Source of the DNA: a virus
Direction: 5' to 3' (one strand)
IMG/VR virus record: IMGVR_UViG_3300027743_000064
Coordinates: 1 to 34,106 of that record
Length of the DNA stretch: 34,106 nucleotides
This document shows positions 2 through 34,106 of this stretch, in pieces. Numbering within the stretch: the stretch's first letter is position 1; each line of letters opens with the position of its first letter. Made by a program: the position numbers and the translations under genes. The notes below the pieces were generated by a model. It saw only the letters and a list, made by a program, of their open reading frames with translations, was not told where the DNA came from and did no database searches.

Positions 2-907
2 CTCGGAATCCCCAATCGACCGAGTGCCGAGGGAAAGAAGGGTTGGGGAGTGCGCGATACGGCGAAGGAGCTAGATCGTGCTCTGGGCGGAGTGAGTGAG
101 GACTTGCAGCTTGCCCGTCTAGTTCGCATGAATCCCGCACTGAAGAACATCAAGGATCGAGCGACAGCGATTCGAGTCGTCAAGCAGACGGCTAAGAGGA
201 TGGTGAACGAAGAGGAGGCTGTCGTATCCGGTGATGTGTCCTGTGCCGATGAAGTCTACCTGGGTGAGGCTGTCTCGATCTTATCCCAGCTTCCCCAAAC
301 CGTATTCGATTTCTGCATCACCGATCCACCGTGGATGAAGTTCGAGAAGTCTGACGATCCTACGTTGAAAAGAGACGATTTCACATTGCCCGTGTTTCAG
401 GCACTCTACCGGACAATGAAGTTCGACTCGATCATGTATATGTTCGTCGGAGCAGACGATTTCGAATTTTACAAAAAGAAGCTACCAAATATTGGCTGGA
501 AAGTGCAGGGACATCCATGCGTATGGGTAAAAGAGGGGAGTTTATCGAGGACAGGGGTCCGGTCATGGGAACATGGACGGGATTTGGAGCTTATCCTGGT
601 GGCCGCCAAAGGTTCACCTGTTCTCGCATCGAGCACTCAGGTCTCCTCTATATTTCACCATGCGGTTGTGCCATCGAAGCATCTGATTCACCCGAACGAG
701 AAACCCGTTGGTCTCCTAGAGAAGATAGCAAAAAACTGCTCATACGTCGGTTCGTTAGGGGTTGACCCGTTTGGTGGTTCTGGATCATTCGGTGTGATGT
801 GTGATAATCTCAAACGTCATTACACCATCATCGAGAGGGAGCACGACAGATACAAGAAGATTCAAGAACGGCTGACGAGGAAGAAGGCGAGCCGAGTCGA
901 TGATTGA
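2..907 (+). CDS. DNA adenine/cytosine-N4 methyltransferase with ParB-like HTH region (5' partial)
   Basis: Predicted SAM-dependent DNA amino-methyltransferase that methylates an exocyclic amine of adenine (N6) or cytosine (N4). The frame is open to the window edge, so the gene probably begins upstream; a GTG at 50 is the first in-window start candidate. Numbering from that GTG, catalytic motif IV is DPPW at residues 92-95, an HPNEKP segment starts at about 214, and the SAM-binding motif DPFGGSGSFG lies at 239-248. The order IV before I is that of beta-class enzymes. The first 50 residues (RDTAKEL, VSEDLQLAR, NPALKNIKDR) resemble the helix-turn-helix part of ParB-like proteins, which are often fused to methylases in phages. 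There is no restriction partner nearby, so it is probably an orphan phage methylase. It overlaps the polymerase gene by 8 bases. Confidence 0.88.
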   Translation, partial: LGIPNRPSAEGKKGWGVRDTAKELDRALGGVSEDLQLARLVRMNPALKNIKDRATAIRVVKQTAKRMVNEEEAVVSGDVSCADEVYLGEAVSILSQLPQTVFDFCITDPPWMKFEKSDDPTLKRDDFTLPVFQALYRTMKFDSIMYMFVGADDFEFYKKKLPNIGWKVQGHPCVWVKEGSLSRTGVRSWEHGRDLELILVAAKGSPVLASSTQVSSIFHHAVVPSKHLIHPNEKPVGLLEKIAKNCSYVGSLGVDPFGGSGSFGVMCDNLKRHYTIIEREHDRYKKIQERLTRKKASRVDD

Positions 908-3440
908 GCGGAACTACGTGCGTGGGGAGGGACCACTTCACGCCAAGCTAATGGTTATTGGAGAAGCTCCCGGTGGAGATGAAGACCGTGAGAGACGTCC
1001 ATTTGTCGGCGCTTCAGGCCGTTTGCTTAATAAGTTTCTACACGAGGCCGGCATCGAAAGAAGCCAGGTATACGTTACAAACATTGTCAAAATCCGTCCA
1101 CCTGACAATAAGTTTGAAAGACTTAGAGAGTATGGAGTCTCTCCGATCGATTTCTTGCCCGAGTTGTGGGACGAGATCAGAGCCGTTCGACCTAATTGCA
1201 TACTTGCCCTCGGAAAGAATGCTCTTAAATTTCTCACTGGACGCTCTGGCAAAGGTAATTCAATCACGGAAAACAGAGGTAGTATCCTGCCGCTCGTGTC
1301 GGCGTCGAGATGCGAATGCAAAGTTATAGCCACCTTCCATCCGGCGTCCCTTCTCCATATGCGCGGCTCGGACTTGGCAGATCCGATGCAACGCATCTTC
1401 ATGCAGTCTGATTTCAAGAAAGCTGTTGAAGAGAGCGAATCGCCAGAATTCAACCTACCTCGTAGGTCTCTACTCGTAGCTCAAAACTCGCAGGACGTAT
1501 GGAGATACATCAATAGGAATCGGGATAAGATAAACCCACTCACTGGACGCAAGCTAATAGGTCTGGACATTGAAGTCAAGAGTGCCATTCCCACAGTCTT
1601 AGGTTTATCATTCGATCCATACGAAGCTCTAGCTATTCCCCTCTTAGATTTTCCATCAGCCCATCACGATGGCGACTGTCTCTGTGTCAGCCCCAGGGAC
1701 GTAGCTGATTCTCTCCGAACGGTCTTCCAATACATCAACGACGAGGAAGTAGATATTGTAGGTCAGAACTTCAAGTTCGACCATGACAAGATCGAACCTC
1801 GGGGCATGTGTGTCAAGGGACGAATCATTGACATCATGCTCATCCACGCTACGGTCTATCCTGAATTCCCCAAGTCCATTGAGTTCATGCTTTCCGTCCA
1901 TACTCGTGAACCATTCTACAAGAATGACACGATGTATAAGACGTCGCTGCGTAACCTGTGCATTGGGTGCGGGCGTGATGCTGCCGTTTCTGTTGAATTG
2001 GCTGGCATTCTCTTGCCTCTCCTCAAGGAATTTGGACTCTGGGACTTCTATTTCGGCTACGACAAGTCAAGCTGGAAATGGCCGCTCTGTGTGGAGCAGC
2101 TTCACAATATGTATCGTCAGATGGATCATGTAGGATTTCCATTTGACAAAGACAAGAACAAGGAGTTAAAGCACAAGTATTCTAGCATGGCTGCCACTCA
2201 GCAGGTCGAACTGGACCTATTGGTCGGAGCTAAGGTAAACGTCAATTCGTGGAAGCAAGTAGCCTTCCTGCTATACGAGCATCTGAAGCTTCCTAAACGT
2301 GGCAAGGATGGACAGGGAACAGATGAGGACACGCTCGTAGCCCTCATGAATTCTCCAGCGACGAAGAACGAAGAACACAGACGGATCATGGAGTTGATCT
2401 TAGAAATCCGTCGCATTAGAAAGAACATTGGAACCTATCTCAATGCAGAGCTGGATTTCGATGGGAGAATGCGGACGAACTATAAGATCGTAGGAACTGA
2501 GACTGGTCGAACGTCTACTTCCAAGCAAGATCCCCCTGTCCGCCCATACCCTATGGGACTGTCATTCCAGACAATGACCAAGCATGGGGAGATCGGTCCA
2601 GACTTGAGAAAGCAATTTCCTGTCGACTCTGGTTTCTGCTATTTGCAGGCAGACTCGAAGCAAGCAGAGGCACGCGTCGTATGGCTCTTGGCTGAGAACT
2701 ATGCTGGCTTGATCAGACTGGATGATCCGAATTATGACGTTCATGCCGAGACAGCCTCTTGGTTCTATCCCGGATCAGACGTCGAACTATTGAAGAAAGA
2801 CAAACCGAGACGATTTACGGGAAAGACGATCCGTCACTCCGGTCACTACGACGTGAGCAAGCGTCCCTGCATGATGCGATTCAACAGTGACGCCAAGAAA
2901 TTCAATCTTGACATCCAGATCACTGAATGGAAAGCCGGTCAGCTATTGGAGCTTTTCCACACGAATGACCCGTCCATCAAGGGCACATTCCATCAACAGA
3001 TTAGAGATGTCGTAGATGAGACACGAGTCTTAACTTCTCCATTCGGAAGAAGGAGAGAGTTCTTCGGGAATCCAGACGATCATGGCTTCTACAAGGAAGC
3101 GTATGCTCAGATTCCCCAAGCGACAGTAGCCGACAATACGAAAAGAGCGATGCTAGGGATTCGACATGAAGTCTCTGACATTCGATTCGTATTGGAGTGG
3201 CACGATGGCTTCTTAGCTATGGTTCCAATCAAAGAGGTCGAGCTTTATGCACGGCTCTTCAATGATTGGATGGAGAAACCAATAGATTTCAGTGAGTGTT
3301 CGCTCCCGAGAAAATCCATTGTAATTCCGTGCGAATTGGAAATCTCGGAGACGACCTACTACGACATGGAAACCTATGAATTGGATCGACGACGTCCTGA
3401 CGGGGACGGATCACGTCGAGACGCCCAAGCAATTCGTTAA
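900..3440 (+). CDS. Uracil-DNA glycosylase / family A DNA polymerase fusion
   Basis: Replicative DNA polymerase with an N-terminal uracil-DNA-glycosylase (family 4-like) domain. Residues 17-156 carry GEAPGGDED (21-29), PFVGASG, VTNIVKIRPP and FHPASLL (146-152). The CxxC that supplies part of the Fe-S cluster in classical family 4 enzymes is not seen before GEAPG. A 3'-5' exonuclease follows: DIE at 223-225, NFKFD at 290-294, D360. The polymerase part has TGRTSTS (535-541), motif A DSKQAEAR (585-592), motif B R638-x3-K642-x7-Y650, and motif C HDG (768-770). The position equal to E. coli Pol I Phe762 is His646, and the usual HDE of motif C is HDG. The last 65 bases overlap the downstream ATPase gene. 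The UDG domain may let the replisome sense or remove uracil (inference). Confidence 0.93.
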   Translation: MIERNYVRGEGPLHAKLMVIGEAPGGDEDRERRPFVGASGRLLNKFLHEAGIERSQVYVTNIVKIRPPDNKFERLREYGVSPIDFLPELWDEIRAVRPNCILALGKNALKFLTGRSGKGNSITENRGSILPLVSASRCECKVIATFHPASLLHMRGSDLADPMQRIFMQSDFKKAVEESESPEFNLPRRSLLVAQNSQDVWRYINRNRDKINPLTGRKLIGLDIEVKSAIPTVLGLSFDPYEALAIPLLDFPSAHHDGDCLCVSPRDVADSLRTVFQYINDEEVDIVGQNFKFDHDKIEPRGMCVKGRIIDIMLIHATVYPEFPKSIEFMLSVHTREPFYKNDTMYKTSLRNLCIGCGRDAAVSVELAGILLPLLKEFGLWDFYFGYDKSSWKWPLCVEQLHNMYRQMDHVGFPFDKDKNKELKHKYSSMAATQQVELDLLVGAKVNVNSWKQVAFLLYEHLKLPKRGKDGQGTDEDTLVALMNSPATKNEEHRRIMELILEIRRIRKNIGTYLNAELDFDGRMRTNYKIVGTETGRTSTSKQDPPVRPYPMGLSFQTMTKHGEIGPDLRKQFPVDSGFCYLQADSKQAEARVVWLLAENYAGLIRLDDPNYDVHAETASWFYPGSDVELLKKDKPRRFTGKTIRHSGHYDVSKRPCMMRFNSDAKKFNLDIQITEWKAGQLLELFHTNDPSIKGTFHQQIRDVVDETRVLTSPFGRRREFFGNPDDHGFYKEAYAQIPQATVADNTKRAMLGIRHEVSDIRFVLEWHDGFLAMVPIKEVELYARLFNDWMEKPIDFSECSLPRKSIVIPCELEISETTYYDMETYELDRRRPDGDGSRRDAQAIR

Positions 3441-12465: not shown

Positions 12466-13858
12466 CTTGAGTTACCTTTTTGAGAATGACCACTTCATTG
12501 GAGCCATCAACGACATGCTGATACTCCTCGAAGTTGGAAAGCCATCCCAGTCTGGAATCTAGAAGGTTATTCTCCCCATAACTGTATATGAGGATATACT
12601 TCACGTCTGGTCCGGCAGTCTCGAAGAATTCATTTCGAGTATCATCACCCATCTCCAGAAGGCGATTCACAGAGATCATGATTAGATCTCCAGACACGAT
12701 CGGGATGAGATTGACGATTCCTGAATGAAGAACCTTTCCACGGCTCAATCGAGCATTTGCTCTATTGTATCTTCCAGCGTCGATCTCTACTCCGATCAGC
12801 TGTGCTTCCGGGTAAATGATACCAAGTTTCTGGAGCAATGATGCGTTACCACAGCCAAGATCAATGATGCTAGTTAATCTCTCATCGATGGATTTCACCA
12901 TCTTAATGACAAAGCTATGAGCCTTGTTCATTGTATCTCTGGACGAGAATCCGTTGTCCGAGTAGTTCGTCTCATCTTCGGACTTGTAGAAGCGAACTGG
13001 AGAAATAACTTTGAATGGGAACTGATTACCAGATGCACCTTCTGAAGGATACACCATGCCATTCCTGTCCACAATAACTCTCTCGGATAGTGGATCACTC
13101 GACGTCACGATTTTCAGGACTGGAGTCGAAATGATAGCGATACCGTGGAGCGAGTCCCACCGGATAGGCCATTCCAACATCTGGCGCATCCAGTTAGACT
13201 CGTTCGGATAATACTCCGTGAAAGTCTGCATCAACTCATCAGCCATCTGTGCAGTCTTTTCACACTGGAAGTTGCATGGGAGATGACTCACCATTCTCAC
13301 GCCAAGCCAGCGGAGCAGAATATTGCAAGCTCCTGGCCCACTGACCCGATAATGGGTAGCATCCCCAAAGGTGTCGCGCACCATCGGATAGGTCAGATCT
13401 CGCCAGTGATCCACGACCCAGTTCCGATAGAAGAATTCCTGACAACAGGACGGGAAGCCTAAGGCCTCACCAATCTTCCTGTCATCATTACTATCCCATG
13501 CCTGCATGAACTCATAGACCTTGTCCTCGTTTCCAATGACGATTCGATAGACCCATGGCTTGCCCTCGACGAATTGCATCGCTGCATTGCCATAGGTTGT
13601 GGATGCCATTGCTTCCTGTCTCAAGGGAATGACAGTCAGGCCTAGATCCGAACATGCCCGCATGAGGGTCGGCAACTCTTTCGGGTCGCAATGCTGAAGA
13701 GCTAATGGCTTCAAGTCCTGCGATACTGCCAGCCTCTCGAAATAGATCCAAGCTCTGGAAATGTCAGAGATTCGCTTCTCCCAGATTGCACGTGCTTCTG
13801 GACTGACCCAGACGATCTGAGTGAATTCTGGGACGGAAAAGTCGAGTCTTATAACCAC
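12452..13858 (-). CDS. DUF483-like domain fused to SAM-dependent methyltransferase
   Basis: A 468-residue protein. The N-terminal half carries ALGFPSCCQEFF (132-143) and, further on, SHLPCNFQCE (191-200). Together they resemble the ALGYP-x-CC and SHxPC-x2-C patterns I associate with DUF483-type proteins, whose function is not established. The C-terminal half (about 300-465) is a class I methyltransferase: IIDLGCGNAS (331-340) is the SAM-binding loop, LIGVEIDAGRYNRAN the second strand with the acidic SAM-ribose ligand, and VSGDLIMISVN the later strand. It overlaps the radical SAM gene by 10 bases and the next gene by 14, so the three are probably made together. The vicinal cysteines C138/C139 plus C195/C199 could bind metal or be redox active. 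A partner role in modifying the neighbouring His/Asp repeat protein is inferred. Confidence 0.7.
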   Translation of the reverse strand: MVIRLDFSVPEFTQIVWVSPEARAIWEKRISDISRAWIYFERLAVSQDLKPLALQHCDPKELPTLMRACSDLGLTVIPLRQEAMASTTYGNAAMQFVEGKPWVYRIVIGNEDKVYEFMQAWDSNDDRKIGEALGFPSCCQEFFYRNWVVDHWRDLTYPMVRDTFGDATHYRVSGPGACNILLRWLGVRMVSHLPCNFQCEKTAQMADELMQTFTEYYPNESNWMRQMLEWPIRWDSLHGIAIISTPVLKIVTSSDPLSERVIVDRNGMVYPSEGASGNQFPFKVISPVRFYKSEDETNYSDNGFSSRDTMNKAHSFVIKMVKSIDERLTSIIDLGCGNASLLQKLGIIYPEAQLIGVEIDAGRYNRANARLSRGKVLHSGIVNLIPIVSGDLIMISVNRLLEMGDDTRNEFFETAGPDVKYILIYSYGENNLLDSRLGWLSNFEEYQHVVDGSNEVVILKKVTQDALR

Positions 13859-29666: not shown

Positions 29667-30089
29667 TTAGACGGCGTATCCACGCCCTTTGGTGTCGCCC
29701 CGTGGAGAGTCGCTTGCATCAACCTGTATTGCGCTTTCGACTTGGCCGGCATTGCTATCCTCCGCGGGAACCTGTTCGATCGTAGCTTCCCTCTGTCTCA
29801 ACTCGAATTCCTTAACGCGTCGTGACGCCTCAGCGAATGACATTGGCTTGGTTCTGATTGGTTCGGGCATTTCTGTCGAATCGACCCGACCCGCACCTTT
29901 TTGTGCGGCCAATATCTGATCCATCAGTCGATCATTAACGTCATGCGCTCGCTGTAGCTCGAACTCCAATCGTCGAATGTAGCTGGTATACAGCTCTTTC
30001 TCATTATCGACGACCCGGTCGCCCCCGATTGAAACGAGGCGAATGGTAGATGCGCGTGGGTTGGTCCACAGATTTGTTATCCTTTTCAA
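29667..30089 (-). CDS. Coiled-coil protein overlapping the terminase gene (start uncertain)
   Basis: The frame carries a convincing coiled coil (NEKELYTSYIRRLEFELQRAHDVNDRLMDQILAAQK), then SFAEASRRVKEFELRQREATIEQ, and ends in a polar tail. Small coiled-coil proteins after terminase are frequent in phages. No ATG or GTG lies near its expected start. A TTG at 30089 has GGAG four bases upstream and is used here, giving 140 residues and an 86-base overlap with terminase. An ATG at 30269 would extend it but would overlap terminase by 266 bases and add a sequence that looks like frame shadow. A CTG at 29993 is another possibility. Confidence 0.55.
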   Translation of the reverse strand: MKRITNLWTNPRASTIRLVSIGGDRVVDNEKELYTSYIRRLEFELQRAHDVNDRLMDQILAAQKGAGRVDSTEMPEPIRTKPMSFAEASRRVKEFELRQREATIEQVPAEDSNAGQVESAIQVDASDSPRGDTKGRGYAV

Positions 30090-31680
30090 ACTTCTCCATA
30101 GACCTGTAATACGAAGTCTGGTCTCCTGTCCGAGCCAGATTATCCACGATCCTTCCTTCAGCCACCAGCTTCTCAAGTTCTGCGTCTGGCGACCCAAGGA
30201 GGTCTTCAATGGCGTTGACTCCGTATCGAGTCTCGTCGTAGGCGTCGTCTCCGTCGAATTCTCTGACATCTTCAGGATTCTTTCCAGCCTTGCCAGGATC
30301 GTTATAAGTGCATTTCGGAATTATGTCTATCGTCTCAGAGCAATGCCTGAAAATAAAGAGCTTCGGGAGATTCCCTTCAGGTCTTTCGGGCTGGAACATC
30401 TCACGGTAATCCCGGAGTCCCTTCGTCCCATAGATCCTGAAGATTCGATTCGCAACGTCTTCATCATATCCTTCGGGCGGCACATATCGTGCGGGCCTTG
30501 GAGCCCATCGGAGGAATTCATGTAGAAGCTGCTTCCCTGCAATTCGATCATTCGTGGCCTTCTCAATAGATCGGAACTGTGAGGCCTGAACGAACTGCTC
30601 CATCAGTGTATGCTTCTCACCTCGCGATGCCCATGCTGATGGGTCGAGAACTACTCGACGAATCGGCTCGCCCGCACTGAGTCTTGCTACATCCGCTCCC
30701 CAGATGGCGATCTTATCTTTCGACGTGTATTCTCGATACTTGAACGCCTGCCGACCAGGAGCGATTGCATACCATCCAGCGATTGTCTTGGCCTTCAGGT
30801 CAGGGTTAATCCCACCCCAGTCGATCGCTAGGACACGCGGCCAGAATCCAGGAATTCTAAACGGGTCGATAACATGCAGAGCGTGCGCTGGTTCCCCGAT
30901 GAGATGATCTGTCCTGAACTCACTGAAGACCTGGCCAGCGAATACCCACCAATCTCCTTCGACCTTTGCTTTGTATTCAGCCGGGGGCAATCTCCTCAAC
31001 CTATTGATGTAATTCGGATCGTTCTTCATCAGGTATGGGTTATCTGTCAACCTTGCCCTGACGAAAGCTCTGTAGGTGCGCGTTAGTTCGTCATAGATTA
31101 TCGTATCCCCGAAACCATCCCTATCCGGTTCAACGAATAGTTTACGGACCCACGCATGTCCAATGTTTCCGGGATTGGAGGCACAACGGACGCAGGCTGG
31201 GAGTTCTGGGATTGTGCTTCGCACTCGTGAGCCGACGATGTAGGTGTATTCTCCCTCCTCGAAGTGGGTAAGCTCGTCGAAGGCAGCATAATGAAACTCA
31301 GCAGTATCGTGGCTTCGTGCATCTGCCATTGACTCCAGATAGCTGAACTTAATCGACGCTCCACTTGAGAACTTCCAGATGTGATCAGTCGCGTTGTAAA
31401 TCCCACCCTCGGCCTTGTAGATTTCCTCCGATCGAGGGATAAGAGATTCCTTCAACTCGGGCATTGTCCGCCGGAAGATGATCCCTCTGAAATTCTTGTT
31501 CTTATGCCATCCCATTAGGATGGGGATTAAGACCAGTAATTCAGACTTGCCACCTCCCACCGCTCCACCATAGAATGCCTCGAAGACCTCCCATGGCAAG
31601 CTGAGGAATTTCTCTTGGCGCGGGAAAGGTTTCCACGATCGCCTTACGCCACCCTCAAAGTATTCGATCTGAAGGGGCAT
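30004..31680 (-). CDS. Terminase large subunit
   Basis: A 558-residue packaging motor. The ATPase has Walker A GGAVGGGKS (38-46), Walker B YAAFDE (131-136) with the catalytic Glu, and coupling motif III CASNPGN (166-172). The nuclease has DWGG at 287-290 (first metal Asp in LAIDWG), and acidic DGDDAYDETRYG (476-487) provides the last metal ligands. It drives DNA into the prohead through the portal and cuts the concatemer. It lies directly after a small conserved gene, with the start adjacent to its stop codon. Confidence 0.93.
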   Translation of the reverse strand: MPLQIEYFEGGVRRSWKPFPRQEKFLSLPWEVFEAFYGGAVGGGKSELLVLIPILMGWHKNKNFRGIIFRRTMPELKESLIPRSEEIYKAEGGIYNATDHIWKFSSGASIKFSYLESMADARSHDTAEFHYAAFDELTHFEEGEYTYIVGSRVRSTIPELPACVRCASNPGNIGHAWVRKLFVEPDRDGFGDTIIYDELTRTYRAFVRARLTDNPYLMKNDPNYINRLRRLPPAEYKAKVEGDWWVFAGQVFSEFRTDHLIGEPAHALHVIDPFRIPGFWPRVLAIDWGGINPDLKAKTIAGWYAIAPGRQAFKYREYTSKDKIAIWGADVARLSAGEPIRRVVLDPSAWASRGEKHTLMEQFVQASQFRSIEKATNDRIAGKQLLHEFLRWAPRPARYVPPEGYDEDVANRIFRIYGTKGLRDYREMFQPERPEGNLPKLFIFRHCSETIDIIPKCTYNDPGKAGKNPEDVREFDGDDAYDETRYGVNAIEDLLGSPDAELEKLVAEGRIVDNLARTGDQTSYYRSMEKFEKDNKSVDQPTRIYHSPRFNRGRPGRR

Positions 31681-31908: not shown

Positions 31909-32154
31909 TCAAAGAACGTCGGTCGTTTCGACACTAAACGCGCGCAGCCCTGTGTCAGTGCGGCCGGGCTGAAACTGAACCTTATCGCCTGGAGAAAGAT
32001 TGCGAAACTGCTTCGAGAATTTCGTCAGCTCAGACCAATGAAAGAAATAATCCCGACCGTCGGTTCCTTCTATGAAGCCGAATCCCTTATTGAGCCGGAC
32101 GATCCGCCCGTCTAACCTCCTATCTTCCTTGATTATCTGCTGAGTCTGTTCCAT
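31909..32154 (-). CDS. Cold-shock-domain protein
   Basis: An 81-residue protein with the OB-fold cold-shock signature. GRIVRLNKGFGFIEG includes RNP1 (KGFGFI), DYFFHWSEL corresponds to RNP2 (YFFH), and the usual distal strand is GDKVQFQPGRTDTGLRAFSV. It would bind single-stranded RNA or DNA. The start is placed at 32154, where GGA lies four bases upstream; an in-frame ATG at 32163 is the alternative. It overlaps the end of the terminase small-subunit gene and lies between the two terminase genes, which is unusual. Confidence 0.8.
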   Translation of the reverse strand: MEQTQQIIKEDRRLDGRIVRLNKGFGFIEGTDGRDYFFHWSELTKFSKQFRNLSPGDKVQFQPGRTDTGLRAFSVETTDVL

Positions 32155-32785
32155 TAGATCCATCCGATGGCAATTGATTTACGTATTTGACGTTGAATGC
32201 GTCAAGAGGACGACGCTCAGGAGCGTAGAGATGAAGATGGGAAGTGCGCTCATCATGGAGATGCTCACCCTTGTTGATCGTTCGATCTATAACAGAACTT
32301 AACTGATTCGCCATCTGTGCGGCCAATCGAGCTCGATCTTTCGGGGCGATGTGTTCGAGATTCTCCTCACTGATGAGATTGAGGGCAAGTAGGATCTTGT
32401 CCTGCGCAGCATCTCTTACTCGACTCAATCCTGCATAGATTGAGTCCCGGATCTTCTGATTCCGAGCCAATCGTTCTTCTGGATCAGCAAGTTCCCTGAT
32501 CCCTACACGAGCTAGAACGCTCGCATATCCAGGACTGACATTCCCAACTTCTGCCGCAGCCTCTGGACCTGCCACGATGCAAGTCGCAGCCACCACAGCT
32601 CGCATATCGTCATCGAGCAATGGCTTGTCGCGAGCCGATCCATCCTTGCGAAATCGTGCCGTGTCAAAGCTAACAGCCTTGCTGTCAGGACTGACAGGAG
32701 AAACCTCATCATGAAGCTTCAGTCTTGAAATTACATCATGATCGATCGAAGCTCGCTTGTCCAATTCTTCTCTTGAAATGAACAT
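32120..32785 (-). CDS. Terminase small subunit (putative)
   Basis: A 221-residue helical protein. Residues 62-92 (AVVAATCIVAGPEAAAEVGNVSPGYASVLARV) resemble a helix-turn-helix of the kind terminase small subunits use to recognise packaging sites. The following helices (KIRDSIYAGLSRVRDAAQDKILLALNLISEENLEHI, LAAQMANQLSSVIDRT) could form the oligomerisation core. It is upstream of the large subunit and downstream of the GIY-YIG gene by 2 bases. Sequence divergence is typical for this family, so the call rests on position and helix layout. Confidence 0.65.
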   Translation of the reverse strand: MFISREELDKRASIDHDVISRLKLHDEVSPVSPDSKAVSFDTARFRKDGSARDKPLLDDDMRAVVAATCIVAGPEAAAEVGNVSPGYASVLARVGIRELADPEERLARNQKIRDSIYAGLSRVRDAAQDKILLALNLISEENLEHIAPKDRARLAAQMANQLSSVIDRTINKGEHLHDERTSHLHLYAPERRPLDAFNVKYVNQLPSDGSNGTDSADNQGR

Positions 32786-32787
32786 GG

Positions 32788-33090
32788 CTATTGCACGTAT
32801 TCTTTGAATTTGGGATTGTTCACGATATTCAATTCAGGTTTGTGCGCCTGAATCATCTCGAACTCAAAGTTCCTCATGTCAATCCCTGACTCGAAGAACC
32901 AAATGTGAACTTCATCCGTGTCTCTGAGCTGATCCTTACGACCATTCCCAAAGATGTGATGCCCACCCAACCGAGTTAAAGGCGACTCTGTGCATCCAAC
33001 ATAAATGTAAACTCCTTCTCGCATTACTGCATAGACGAGTTTCCACTTTTTGATAGAGCCTGCCTTTAATGTCCAGTCAGGTGGTTCCAC
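32788..33090 (-). CDS. GIY-YIG nuclease-domain protein
   Basis: A 100-residue single-domain protein with the GIY-YIG pattern. VYAV (19-22) and YIYVG (28-32) form the two key strands, R40 in PLTRL matches the catalytic Arg, E78 (FEFEMI) the metal ligand and N88 (ELNIVNN) the late Asn. There is no added DNA-binding domain, so it is not a full homing endonuclease. A role in DNA processing near packaging is possible. The start is GTG, with AGAGG three bases upstream and a promoter-like sequence immediately before. Confidence 0.8.
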   Translation of the reverse strand: MEPPDWTLKAGSIKKWKLVYAVMREGVYIYVGCTESPLTRLGGHHIFGNGRKDQLRDTDEVHIWFFESGIDMRNFEFEMIQAHKPELNIVNNPKFKEYVQ

Positions 33091-33098
33091 GGGCCTCT

Positions 33099-33127
33099 AG
33101 GGTAACATGATACGGACGCGAAGTCAA
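33099..33127 (-). promoter_or_regulatory. Sigma70-like promoter of the minus-strand late operon
   Basis: On the minus strand a -35 TTGACT (33127-33122) is followed after 17 bases by TACCCT (33104-33099), preceded by TGT as in extended -10 promoters. The -10 matches consensus at only three of six positions. Transcription would begin around 33092, almost on the GTG of the GIY-YIG gene, implying a near-leaderless message or a different true start. Confidence 0.5.
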
Positions 33128-33153: not shown

Positions 33154-33168
33154 GTTCATCGAATGAAC
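33154..33168. promoter_or_regulatory. GTTCAT-N3-ATGAAC dyad (operator candidate)
   Basis: A perfect 6-bp inverted repeat with a 3-base centre, located about 26 bases upstream of the -35 box. Position and symmetry suit an activator or repressor site. The same arms and spacing occur once more at 28063-28077. Confidence 0.45.
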
Positions 33169-33300
33169 GGTTAGTCTGGGGTCATGTCTTGCTTCCCATA
33201 GATGAGGCTCATTTTCATTAGGAAAGTCTATGCTATCTACCCGTTGCGTGATGGATGCTCCGCATGGGCGGGGACGCATGGGACCCGTCGCAGCGAATAT

Positions 33301-33349
33301 GGGATGGAAGTAATGCCCTTATCTACGGGATAGGGATGGAAGTAATGCC
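33301..33349. repeat. Two 17-bp direct repeats, 32-bp period
   Basis: gggatggaagtaatgcc occurs at 33301-33317 and again, identical, at 33333-33349, separated by 15 bases. It could be a pair of protein-binding iterons; they lie just left of the nested palindrome. Confidence 0.85.
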
Positions 33350-33358
33350 TTACGTCCA

Positions 33359-33398
33359 TTACGCAAGACTACGTAACGCGTTACGCCAGGTTGCGTAA
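33359..33398. promoter_or_regulatory. Nested 40-bp dyad centred on a 14-bp palindrome
   Basis: The central 14 bases cgtaacgcgttacg (33372-33385) are a perfect palindrome. Exactly concentric with it, outer arms ttacgcaa (33359-33366) and ttgcgtaa (33391-33398) form a second perfect inverted repeat, with 5 unpaired bases between on each side. This is the architecture of a multimeric protein-binding site (operator, replication or partition site). Confidence 0.85.
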
Positions 33399-33401
33399 CG
33401 T

Positions 33402-33420
33402 CTGTTACAGGGTGTAACAG
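33402..33420. promoter_or_regulatory. CTGTTACA-GGG-TGTAACAG dyad
   Basis: A perfect 8-bp inverted repeat with a 3-base centre. Its GTTAC/GTAAC core repeats that of the adjacent 40-bp dyad, so one protein may bind both. Confidence 0.8.
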
Positions 33421-33436: not shown

Positions 33437-33458
33437 GGCCGCCCGTTTCCAGGCGGCC
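33437..33458 (-). terminator. Rho-independent terminator of the small gene at 33472-33711
   Basis: The stem ggccgcc (33437-33443) / ggcggcc (33452-33458) is a perfect 7-bp GC hairpin with an 8-base loop. On the minus strand it is followed by TTTT. It lies 14 bases past the stop codon of the small gene and isolates it from the late operon. Confidence 0.85.
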
Positions 33459-33471
33459 ATCGATCTAGCGG

Positions 33472-33711
33472 TTAGCGACGTCCGTAAACGTCTACGTGTG
33501 AACCGTGGTCGACCGCGACGTTGCGCGGGGTGCGCATGCGGATCGTCGTTGTCTCGCGGATCGTGGCGGCAATGGGATCGCCCAGTTCCACCATACGGCC
33601 CATGCTGTTAGGGCCAGTCTCGAAAGCGCCCGCAACGTCTAGCGCAGTCGCGCTCGTCTCGAAAGTCAGTGATACGCGGGTGCGGGTGTAGGGCTTGCCA
33701 GTCAGTTGCAT
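33472..33711 (-). CDS. Small hypothetical protein
   Basis: A 79-residue protein starting MQLTGKPYTRTRVSLTFETSATALDVAGAF, with strand-like and charged segments and a C-terminal basic tail. No family recognised. The ATG at 33711 is chosen over an upstream start at 33750 because AGAGG precedes it by 9 bases and the upstream extension would run into the intergenic hairpin. A terminator follows. The G+C-rich codon use resembles the neighbour at 33781. Confidence 0.65.
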   Translation of the reverse strand: MQLTGKPYTRTRVSLTFETSATALDVAGAFETGPNSMGRMVELGDPIAATIRETTTIRMRTPRNVAVDHGSHVDVYGRR

Positions 33712-33741
33712 TGTCTTAGACCTCTTGTCTGTTGTGAATGT

Positions 33742-33768
33742 GGGCGGCACCCGGAATGAGTGCCGCCC
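33742..33768 (-). promoter_or_regulatory. Intercistronic hairpin
   Basis: gggcggcac (33742-33750) and gtgccgccc (33760-33768) form a perfect 9-bp stem with a 9-base loop between the stop of the right-end gene and the ribosome site of the next. There is no U run after it on the minus strand, so it probably stabilises or processes the mRNA, or partly terminates. Confidence 0.6.
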
Positions 33769-33780
33769 CGTGCGATGAGT

Positions 33781-34092
33781 CTATTCGTCGTCGTCGTCCG
33801 CGAGCGCCTTCGTCGCCTTAGCGATCGCCTGCTCCCGCGTATACTTGCCGGGCTTCGCCTTCTGAATGTCGTTGGCCATTTTCTCAATGGCTTTCTCTGG
33901 GCCTTCAGCCGCGCTGCGCACGCGCTGTGAAGTGCGACCACGCGCTGCGAGGTCTGCGCCGTAGAGCGCAAACTTTTCGAGCGAGGGCTTGCGGGTATCC
34001 GGCACCGAGGGATCATCCTCTTTCATCGGAGCGCGGAGATTGCCGCTCGCGATTGCCAGAAGCGCCGCCCAGACCTGCTTTTCGGTCTTCAC
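33781..34092 (-). CDS. Small hypothetical protein, possibly 5' partial
   Basis: A protein of about 103 residues: helical KQVWAALLAIASGNLRAPM, basic middle (RGRTSQRVRSAAEGPEKAIEKMANDIQKA), another helix (TREQAIAKATKALA), acidic end DDDDE. A GTG at 34092 gives the shown start, but the frame stays open to the window edge and may begin further right. Function unknown. Confidence 0.6.
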   Translation of the reverse strand: MKTEKQVWAALLAIASGNLRAPMKEDDPSVPDTRKPSLEKFALYGADLAARGRTSQRVRSAAEGPEKAIEKMANDIQKAKPGKYTREQAIAKATKALADDDDE

Positions 34093-34106
34093 GTTGTCGC
34101 CAAGCG

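Follow-up and report, generated by a model that had tools for sequence, protein, structure and literature searches.

A GTAAC Repeat Cluster beside the Terminase Genes as a Possible Swappable Array of Protein Docking Sites in Soil Phages

Gene Content and Relatives of the Phage Fragment

The window analyzed here, that is, the whole stretch of 34,106 bases, is an IMG/VR virus record and represents a linear fragment from an uncultivated tailed phage; the record is without approximately 14 kb of the phage genome, including the early region. The features that set the scene for the repeat cluster are as follows.

30004–31680, minus strand: large terminase gene terL (PF04466, 2e-8; phrog_979, 3e-43)
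32120–32785, minus strand: candidate small terminase gene terS, N-terminus MFISREELDKR, conserved upstream of terL
33099–33127, minus strand: terS-operon promoter, TTGACT-17-TGT-TACCCT with an extended -10, read from the sequence and with a layout shared by relatives
33154–33168: GTTCA-N5-TGAAC palindrome, whose position is conserved in many relatives and which is a candidate operator for the terS promoter
33278–33286, minus strand (terS strand): 9-mer GGGTCCCAT, which bounds the variable slot on the right and is a candidate packaging signal
33437–33458, minus strand: intrinsic terminator of the upstream minus-strand genes, which bounds the variable slot on the left
33472–33750, minus strand: 92-aa ORF, flanked by the conserved upstream gene and the terminator
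33781–34104, minus strand: 3' part of the conserved upstream gene, whose product is 202 aa in relative G001 and has an acidic C-terminus

The name terS is based on position and conservation because the candidate matched no model in Pfam or PHROG, and no homolog of the 92-aa ORF was found in G001. The array is intergenic and lies between the minus-strand terminator (33458–33437) and the terS operon. A weak GIY-YIG-like ORF (32788–33090) has the terS promoter on one side and terS on the other; it was not seen at that position in close relatives and is possibly a homing-type insertion. A DUF3987 primase is encoded at the left of the window, and positions 900–3440 encode a fusion of a uracil-DNA glycosylase domain to a family A DNA polymerase (UDG-PolA; cf. 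HMO-2011-type phages). HMO-2011-type marine phages, a group name taken from PMC9038755, are among the named phages that TerL matches, at only approximately 30% identity.

Searches with TerL and the capsid candidate identified the syntenic relatives L002/G001, L113/G005, and L114/G006, which have 77%, 75%, and 76% TerL identity, respectively, and the remaining TerL loci that were kept for comparison encode TerL proteins that are 43–53% identical. In a search of genome contigs for prophages or hosts, the capsid candidate gave no match and TerL matched mostly Clostridia with 30–36% identity, and a blastn search with the array region against phages and plasmids gave no match. L122 (G005 47374–47607, minus strand) is a small phage protein with a PEP-CTERM-like tail, PVPEPASLMLLGSGLLAIARKASKRA, which is perhaps a clue to the host.

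Organization of the Array

The array consists of the following overlapping elements.

33301–33317 and 33333–33349, plus strand: 17-bp exact direct repeat GGGATGGAAGTAATGCC, spacing 32
33310–33418: nine GTAA/TTAC half-sites (33310+, 33342+, 33350-, 33359-, 33373+, 33381-, 33395+, 33405-, 33414+)
33357–33378: dyad 1, CATTACGC-AAGACT-ACGTAACG, center 33367.5, imperfect
33379–33400: dyad 2, CGTTACGC-CAGGTT-GCGTAACG, center 33389.5, perfect 8-bp arms
33402–33420: dyad 3, CTGTTACA-GGG-TGTAACAG, center 33411, perfect 8-bp arms
33372–33385: 14-bp palindrome CGTAACGCGTTACG, center 33378.5, where dyads 1 and 2 meet
33359–33366 and 33391–33398: outer inverted repeat, TTACGCAA and TTGCGTAA, center also 33378.5

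An earlier note on this DNA had described the 14-bp palindrome, the outer 8-bp repeat, the dyad with the GGG spacer, and at least five half-sites, and each of these is present as claimed. The full-length GTAAC/GTTAC motif does occur five times (33373, 33380, 33395, 33404, and 33414); the array is larger than that, extending over the nine shorter half-sites listed above, and the 17-bp direct repeat had gone unmentioned, as had the conserved 9-mer, the conserved palindrome, and the terS promoter, which lie 71–320 bp away. The concentric palindrome that the note had emphasized is also there, but tandem dyads are the simplest parse of the array, and the concentric symmetry about 33378.5 arises because dyads 1 and 2, which are similar 22-bp units, abut. 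The dyad centers step by 22 and then 21.5 bp, whereas the spacers are not uniform (6, 6, and 3). Judged by what characterizes a lambda-type array, the region has at least three dyads, shared half-sites, and near-regular spacing of approximately two helical turns, with the qualifications that dyad 1 is imperfect and the spacers vary.

The earlier suggestion that such order is unlikely by chance is borne out by the dyad, half-site, and internal-repeat statistics, all of which are based on shuffles and so take no account of selection on composition. Perfect dyads with arms of at least 8 and a spacer of at most 6 occur only twice in the 34,106-base window, with centers at 33389.5 and 33411. Although 30 dinucleotide shuffles of the window contained a mean of four such dyads, two of them fell within 64 bp of each other in only 2 of the 30 shuffles. 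The local dyad score is 8 versus a shuffle mean of 0.36 and was matched in 2 of 1,000 shuffles, and the internal-repeat statistic of the slot is 22 versus a mean of 2.1 (P = 0.0005, the floor of the test). Between 33310 and 33418, nine GTAA half-sites were observed versus 1.15 expected (P = 0.0003).

A Hypervariable Slot between Conserved Borders

In close relatives the order of elements is upstream gene, terminator, variable slot, GACGGGTCCCAT..CCC..TGCGnAGCAT, GTTCA-N5-TGAAC, promoter (TTGACA-17-TGn-TAnnnT), terS, cold-shock gene, and terL, and terminator hairpins occur at the matching position. The window agrees with this order apart from the GIY-YIG-like ORF inserted before terS. In many relatives GTTCA-N5-TGAAC is found 107–153 bp after GGGTCCCAT, just before the terS promoter, and TGAACACTT half-sites are also present upstream of the neighboring gene in L002 and L113.

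The slot, which extends from the terminator to the 9-mer, holds different repeats in each phage. In place of the GTAAC dyads of the window, we found the following.

L002: TATAG/TATAGC array with 18-bp steps
L113: five TGGTATGACCA palindromes, mostly AGTGGTATGACCACT, which occur nowhere else in that genome
L114: TATGACTC and TTGTATGGTCATCAATACA repeats
L228: TGTATTGACATCAATACA dyads
L195: AAAGTGCTTTG-type repeats
L200: TAAATGAACGTTCATTTA palindrome

Among 14 slots whose borders were chosen by eye, 8 are significantly self-repetitive at P < 0.02 (Fisher combined P approximately 7e-13) and 6 are without significant repeats, whereas conserved DNA of equal length just past the 9-mer reached nominal significance once, with a combined P value of 0.76. 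The exchange is seen between G005 and G006, whose core proteins are mostly 94–99% identical and whose TerS proteins are approximately 88% identical, whereas their slots are without homology: the two sequences cease to align where the upstream gene has its 3' end, and they align again from exactly GACGGGTCCCAT onward. Simple decay does not account for the slots, because L221 and L222 keep an identical slot beside DNA that has diverged. The G005 slot contains exact copies of its repeat unit, and such identical units argue for sequence recognition. In addition, CGATATCGTAGTATCC is found 108–154 bp before GGGTCCCAT in phages whose TerS proteins are approximately 25% identical.

A late-operon switch had been proposed in the earlier note, together with a comparison of the dyads with their flanks in close relatives. 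No relative that we found carries the array of the window or its dyads, and the terminator, GGGTCCCAT, GTTCA-N5-TGAAC, and the TTGACN-17-TGnTAnnnT promoter are kept; because the dyads are not conserved while promoter and terminator persist, a conserved late switch at the dyads is refuted. The conserved candidate operator is GTTCA-N5-TGAAC rather than GTAAC, and this palindrome is likely a conserved phage operator.

The dyad TGTTACA-N3-TGTAACA is not unique to the window, and such dyads form arrays elsewhere too. They are clustered in several unrelated phage contigs, including L351 (4058–4137) and L352 (12708–12787), each of which has three of them in 31–32-bp steps; those of L351 lie directly before a small ORF that appears ribbon-helix-helix-like by eye. 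We also considered a dispersed mobile palindrome and rejected it, since CGTTACGC-N6-GCGTAACG matched 13 viral contigs, which is approximately the chance estimate for a 16-base pattern given an approximate collection size; the matches fall for the most part within unrelated coding regions, with none in the vicinity of GGGTCCCAT.

The 9-mer as a Family Landmark

We counted GGGTCCCAT in 230 kb of DNA upstream of terL at 63 loci: all 63 occurrences are on the terS strand and none is on the opposite one, compared with an expectation of 0.9 per strand, a contrast that is inflated because the loci are related. There are 1–3 copies, often 200–400 bp before terS and in some cases within terS, and each of four larger records that were checked has 1–2 copies. 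Further positions are 1825 in L002, 1842 in L113, and 5082 in L119. The 9-mer is absent from 12 loci with long upstream DNA and was not found near terL in four reference relatives; a literature search for it yielded incidental matches only, in unrelated papers. In several members a second GGGTCCC is found 65–80 bp beyond GGGTCCCAT.

By its sequence distribution, GGGTCCCAT is a candidate packaging signal of the cos/pac type. Among 18 contig ends, 6 lie 150–200 bp upstream of GGGTCCCAT by distances measured by hand, a cluster that could be explained equally well by assembly breaks at the variable slot.

Candidate Binding Proteins and Alternative Explanations

The cooperative protein-binding hub that the earlier note envisaged belongs to the class of explanation that we favor, given the half-sites, the two-turn spacing, and the comparable arrays of relatives, although its specific proposals fare worse. 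With a probability that we place just below even, the cluster is an array of operator- or iteron-like sites particular to this phage that occupies a hypervariable slot and has as its binder a nonconserved protein, either host encoded or the product of a swappable gene. Because relatives keep the surrounding DNA and carry other repeat clusters in the same place, the cluster looks like a swappable docking array rather than a conserved switch. The array would fill a short slot bounded on one side by the upstream gene's terminator and on the other by the conserved control block of terS, which comprises GGGTCCCAT, GTTCA-N5-TGAAC, and the promoter. Because the dyad centers are approximately two turns apart, a dimeric protein with sequence-specific DNA binding probably occupies several neighboring dyads along a single face of the helix. 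The binder would most likely come from the host or from a swappable accessory gene and not be a conserved phage protein, because close relatives exchange the array and keep almost all core proteins; as G005 and G006 share their conserved proteins nearly unchanged, host factors or accessory products remain as candidates. The array would likely act on the terS/packaging locus as a regulatory or topological input. The array is approximately 230 bp upstream of the only recognized terS promoter, and no promoter was recognized within it.

Searches for the binder gave little. No helix-turn-helix or ribbon-helix-helix gene was recognized in the window, which is missing approximately 14 kb of the phage, and the early proteins of G001 gave no match to a DNA-binding regulator. 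A ribbon-helix-helix pattern search hit G005 only, where a small Arc-like gene lies just before the array (E = 0.0085, a weak match). The ParB-like protein at the left edge of the window, which the earlier note had named as one possible binder, is the C-terminal part of a fusion that in a full-length relative joins ParB_N to an N6/N4 methyltransferase, and we rejected a partition-type ParB because the protein is a methyltransferase. It is 95% identical in G005 and G006, whose arrays differ, and the window contains no parS-like match (TGTTNCACGTGNAACA-type) with three or fewer mismatches. The ParB_N-N6/N4 DNA methyltransferase fusion is located at 2–907 of the window, where it is truncated, and at 12887–14140 of L109. 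L234 has a near-parS sequence, TGTTTCACGTGGAACC, in its slot approximately 150 bp before GGGTCCCAT.

The spacing of the dyads would also suit replication-origin iterons, with an initiator bound to three tandem 19–22-bp dyads spaced by 21.5–22 bp. In the lambda origin, O dimers bind four iterons, and the geometry of the array is similar; GTTAC/GTAAC dyads in approximately 22-bp steps also occur inside a replication gene, O-like by eye, of the unrelated L348, and a GC-skew minimum lies approximately 1.0–1.3 kb away in G001, G005, and G006. However, the minimum is not at the slot itself, no O-like initiator was found in G001, AT-richness is not common to all slots, and the replication proteins of G005 and G006 are 94–99% identical despite their different arrays, and we regard an origin as unlikely. 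That same pair of phages bears on the possibility that the array is a cosB- or pac-like recognition element for TerS with GGGTCCCAT as the cleavage site or a second signal. The array adjoins terS, GGGTCCCAT is fixed in strand and close to terS across the family, and the contig ends described above would fit; yet the 88% identical TerS proteins of G005 and G006 have near-identical HTH-like segments and face unrelated arrays, L178 and L207 share slot elements although their TerS proteins are 25% identical, and as a packaging candidate GGGTCCCAT is preferable. Given that slot type and TerS do not covary, TerS is an improbable binder and we reject it as the main reading.

Two further explanations dispense with a DNA-bound protein at the dyads. 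Neutral or selfish repeats could accumulate in a permissive intergenic slot, which would account for the tolerance of complete slot replacement and for the slots without significant repeats. The strong dyad symmetry and regular spacing, the recurrence of elements across lineages at similar distances from GGGTCCCAT, and the identical slot of L221 and L222 beside diverged DNA make this explanation rather improbable. Finally, the terS strand can form consecutive 8-bp hairpins (-38.8 kcal/mol, z = -3.4) that might act as tandem elements in the processing or antitermination of read-through transcripts. But any dyad folds, a terminator precedes the array, the slots of relatives contain direct repeats and exact copies at the sequence level instead of a conserved fold, and no Rfam match was found up to E = 1, so that we consider an RNA-level element very improbable.

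Comparison with Known Systems

The closest geometric parallels to the array are the OR1–3 and OL1–3 operators and the ori iterons of lambda: as there, three tandem hyphenated dyads of approximately 17–22 bp with roughly two-turn spacing would suit cooperative dimers. Unlike the lambda systems, the window and the early proteins of G001 yielded no cognate repressor or O-like initiator, no divergent promoter pair overlaps the sites, and close phages swap them. With cos and pac regions the locus shares its position beside terS and a short strand-fixed element, GGGTCCCAT, in 1–3 copies that are sometimes inside terS, whereas the GTAAC array does not track TerS identity. The GlnR/TnrA box has the consensus TGTNA-N7-TNACA. 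Dyad 3 is the sole exact match to it in the window, but dyads 1 and 2 do not fit, and at no more than one mismatch there are 15 sites in the window compared with 11 expected, which is no enrichment.

Stoperators of cluster A mycobacteriophages are likewise phage-type-specific repeated sites with a specificity that varies between relatives (PMC6550527, PMC9283540). They are reported to be asymmetric, distributed genome-wide, and bound by a phage immunity repressor (PMC9283540), whereas the sites of the window are dyads clustered in one slot and a repressor gene was not found. The palindrome of L113, AGTGGTATGACCACT, includes the string TGGTATGACCA, which also occurs in a paper on PdhR (PMC7660256); this likeness to operators of the GntR/FadR/PdhR type lies in the sequence string and concerns the slot of that relative and not the window.

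Implications for Phage Biology

There is nothing uncommon about operator or iteron arrays as such; the unusual feature here is that unrelated ones are found between fixed borders in phages whose core proteins are mostly 94–99% identical, while the 9-mer at one border and the promoter past it do not change. An otherwise conserved phage family might keep a dedicated swappable slot beside its packaging and late-control region, in which each lineage places operator arrays whose host DNA-binding protein differs from lineage to lineage, a proposal drawn from these comparisons that we hold to be doubtful. If true, rapid swapping of noncoding cassettes would couple the phages to host-specific factors in late gene control, replication, or packaging. 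The constant 9-mer GGGTCCCAT is in addition a candidate packaging signal that can be tested, and it would apply to a large group of environmental phages with a distant relationship to the HMO-2011 type. Should host factors bind the arrays, host adaptation of uncultivated phages could be read from the slot, which would also offer a simple system in which to study rapid turnover of regulatory sites.
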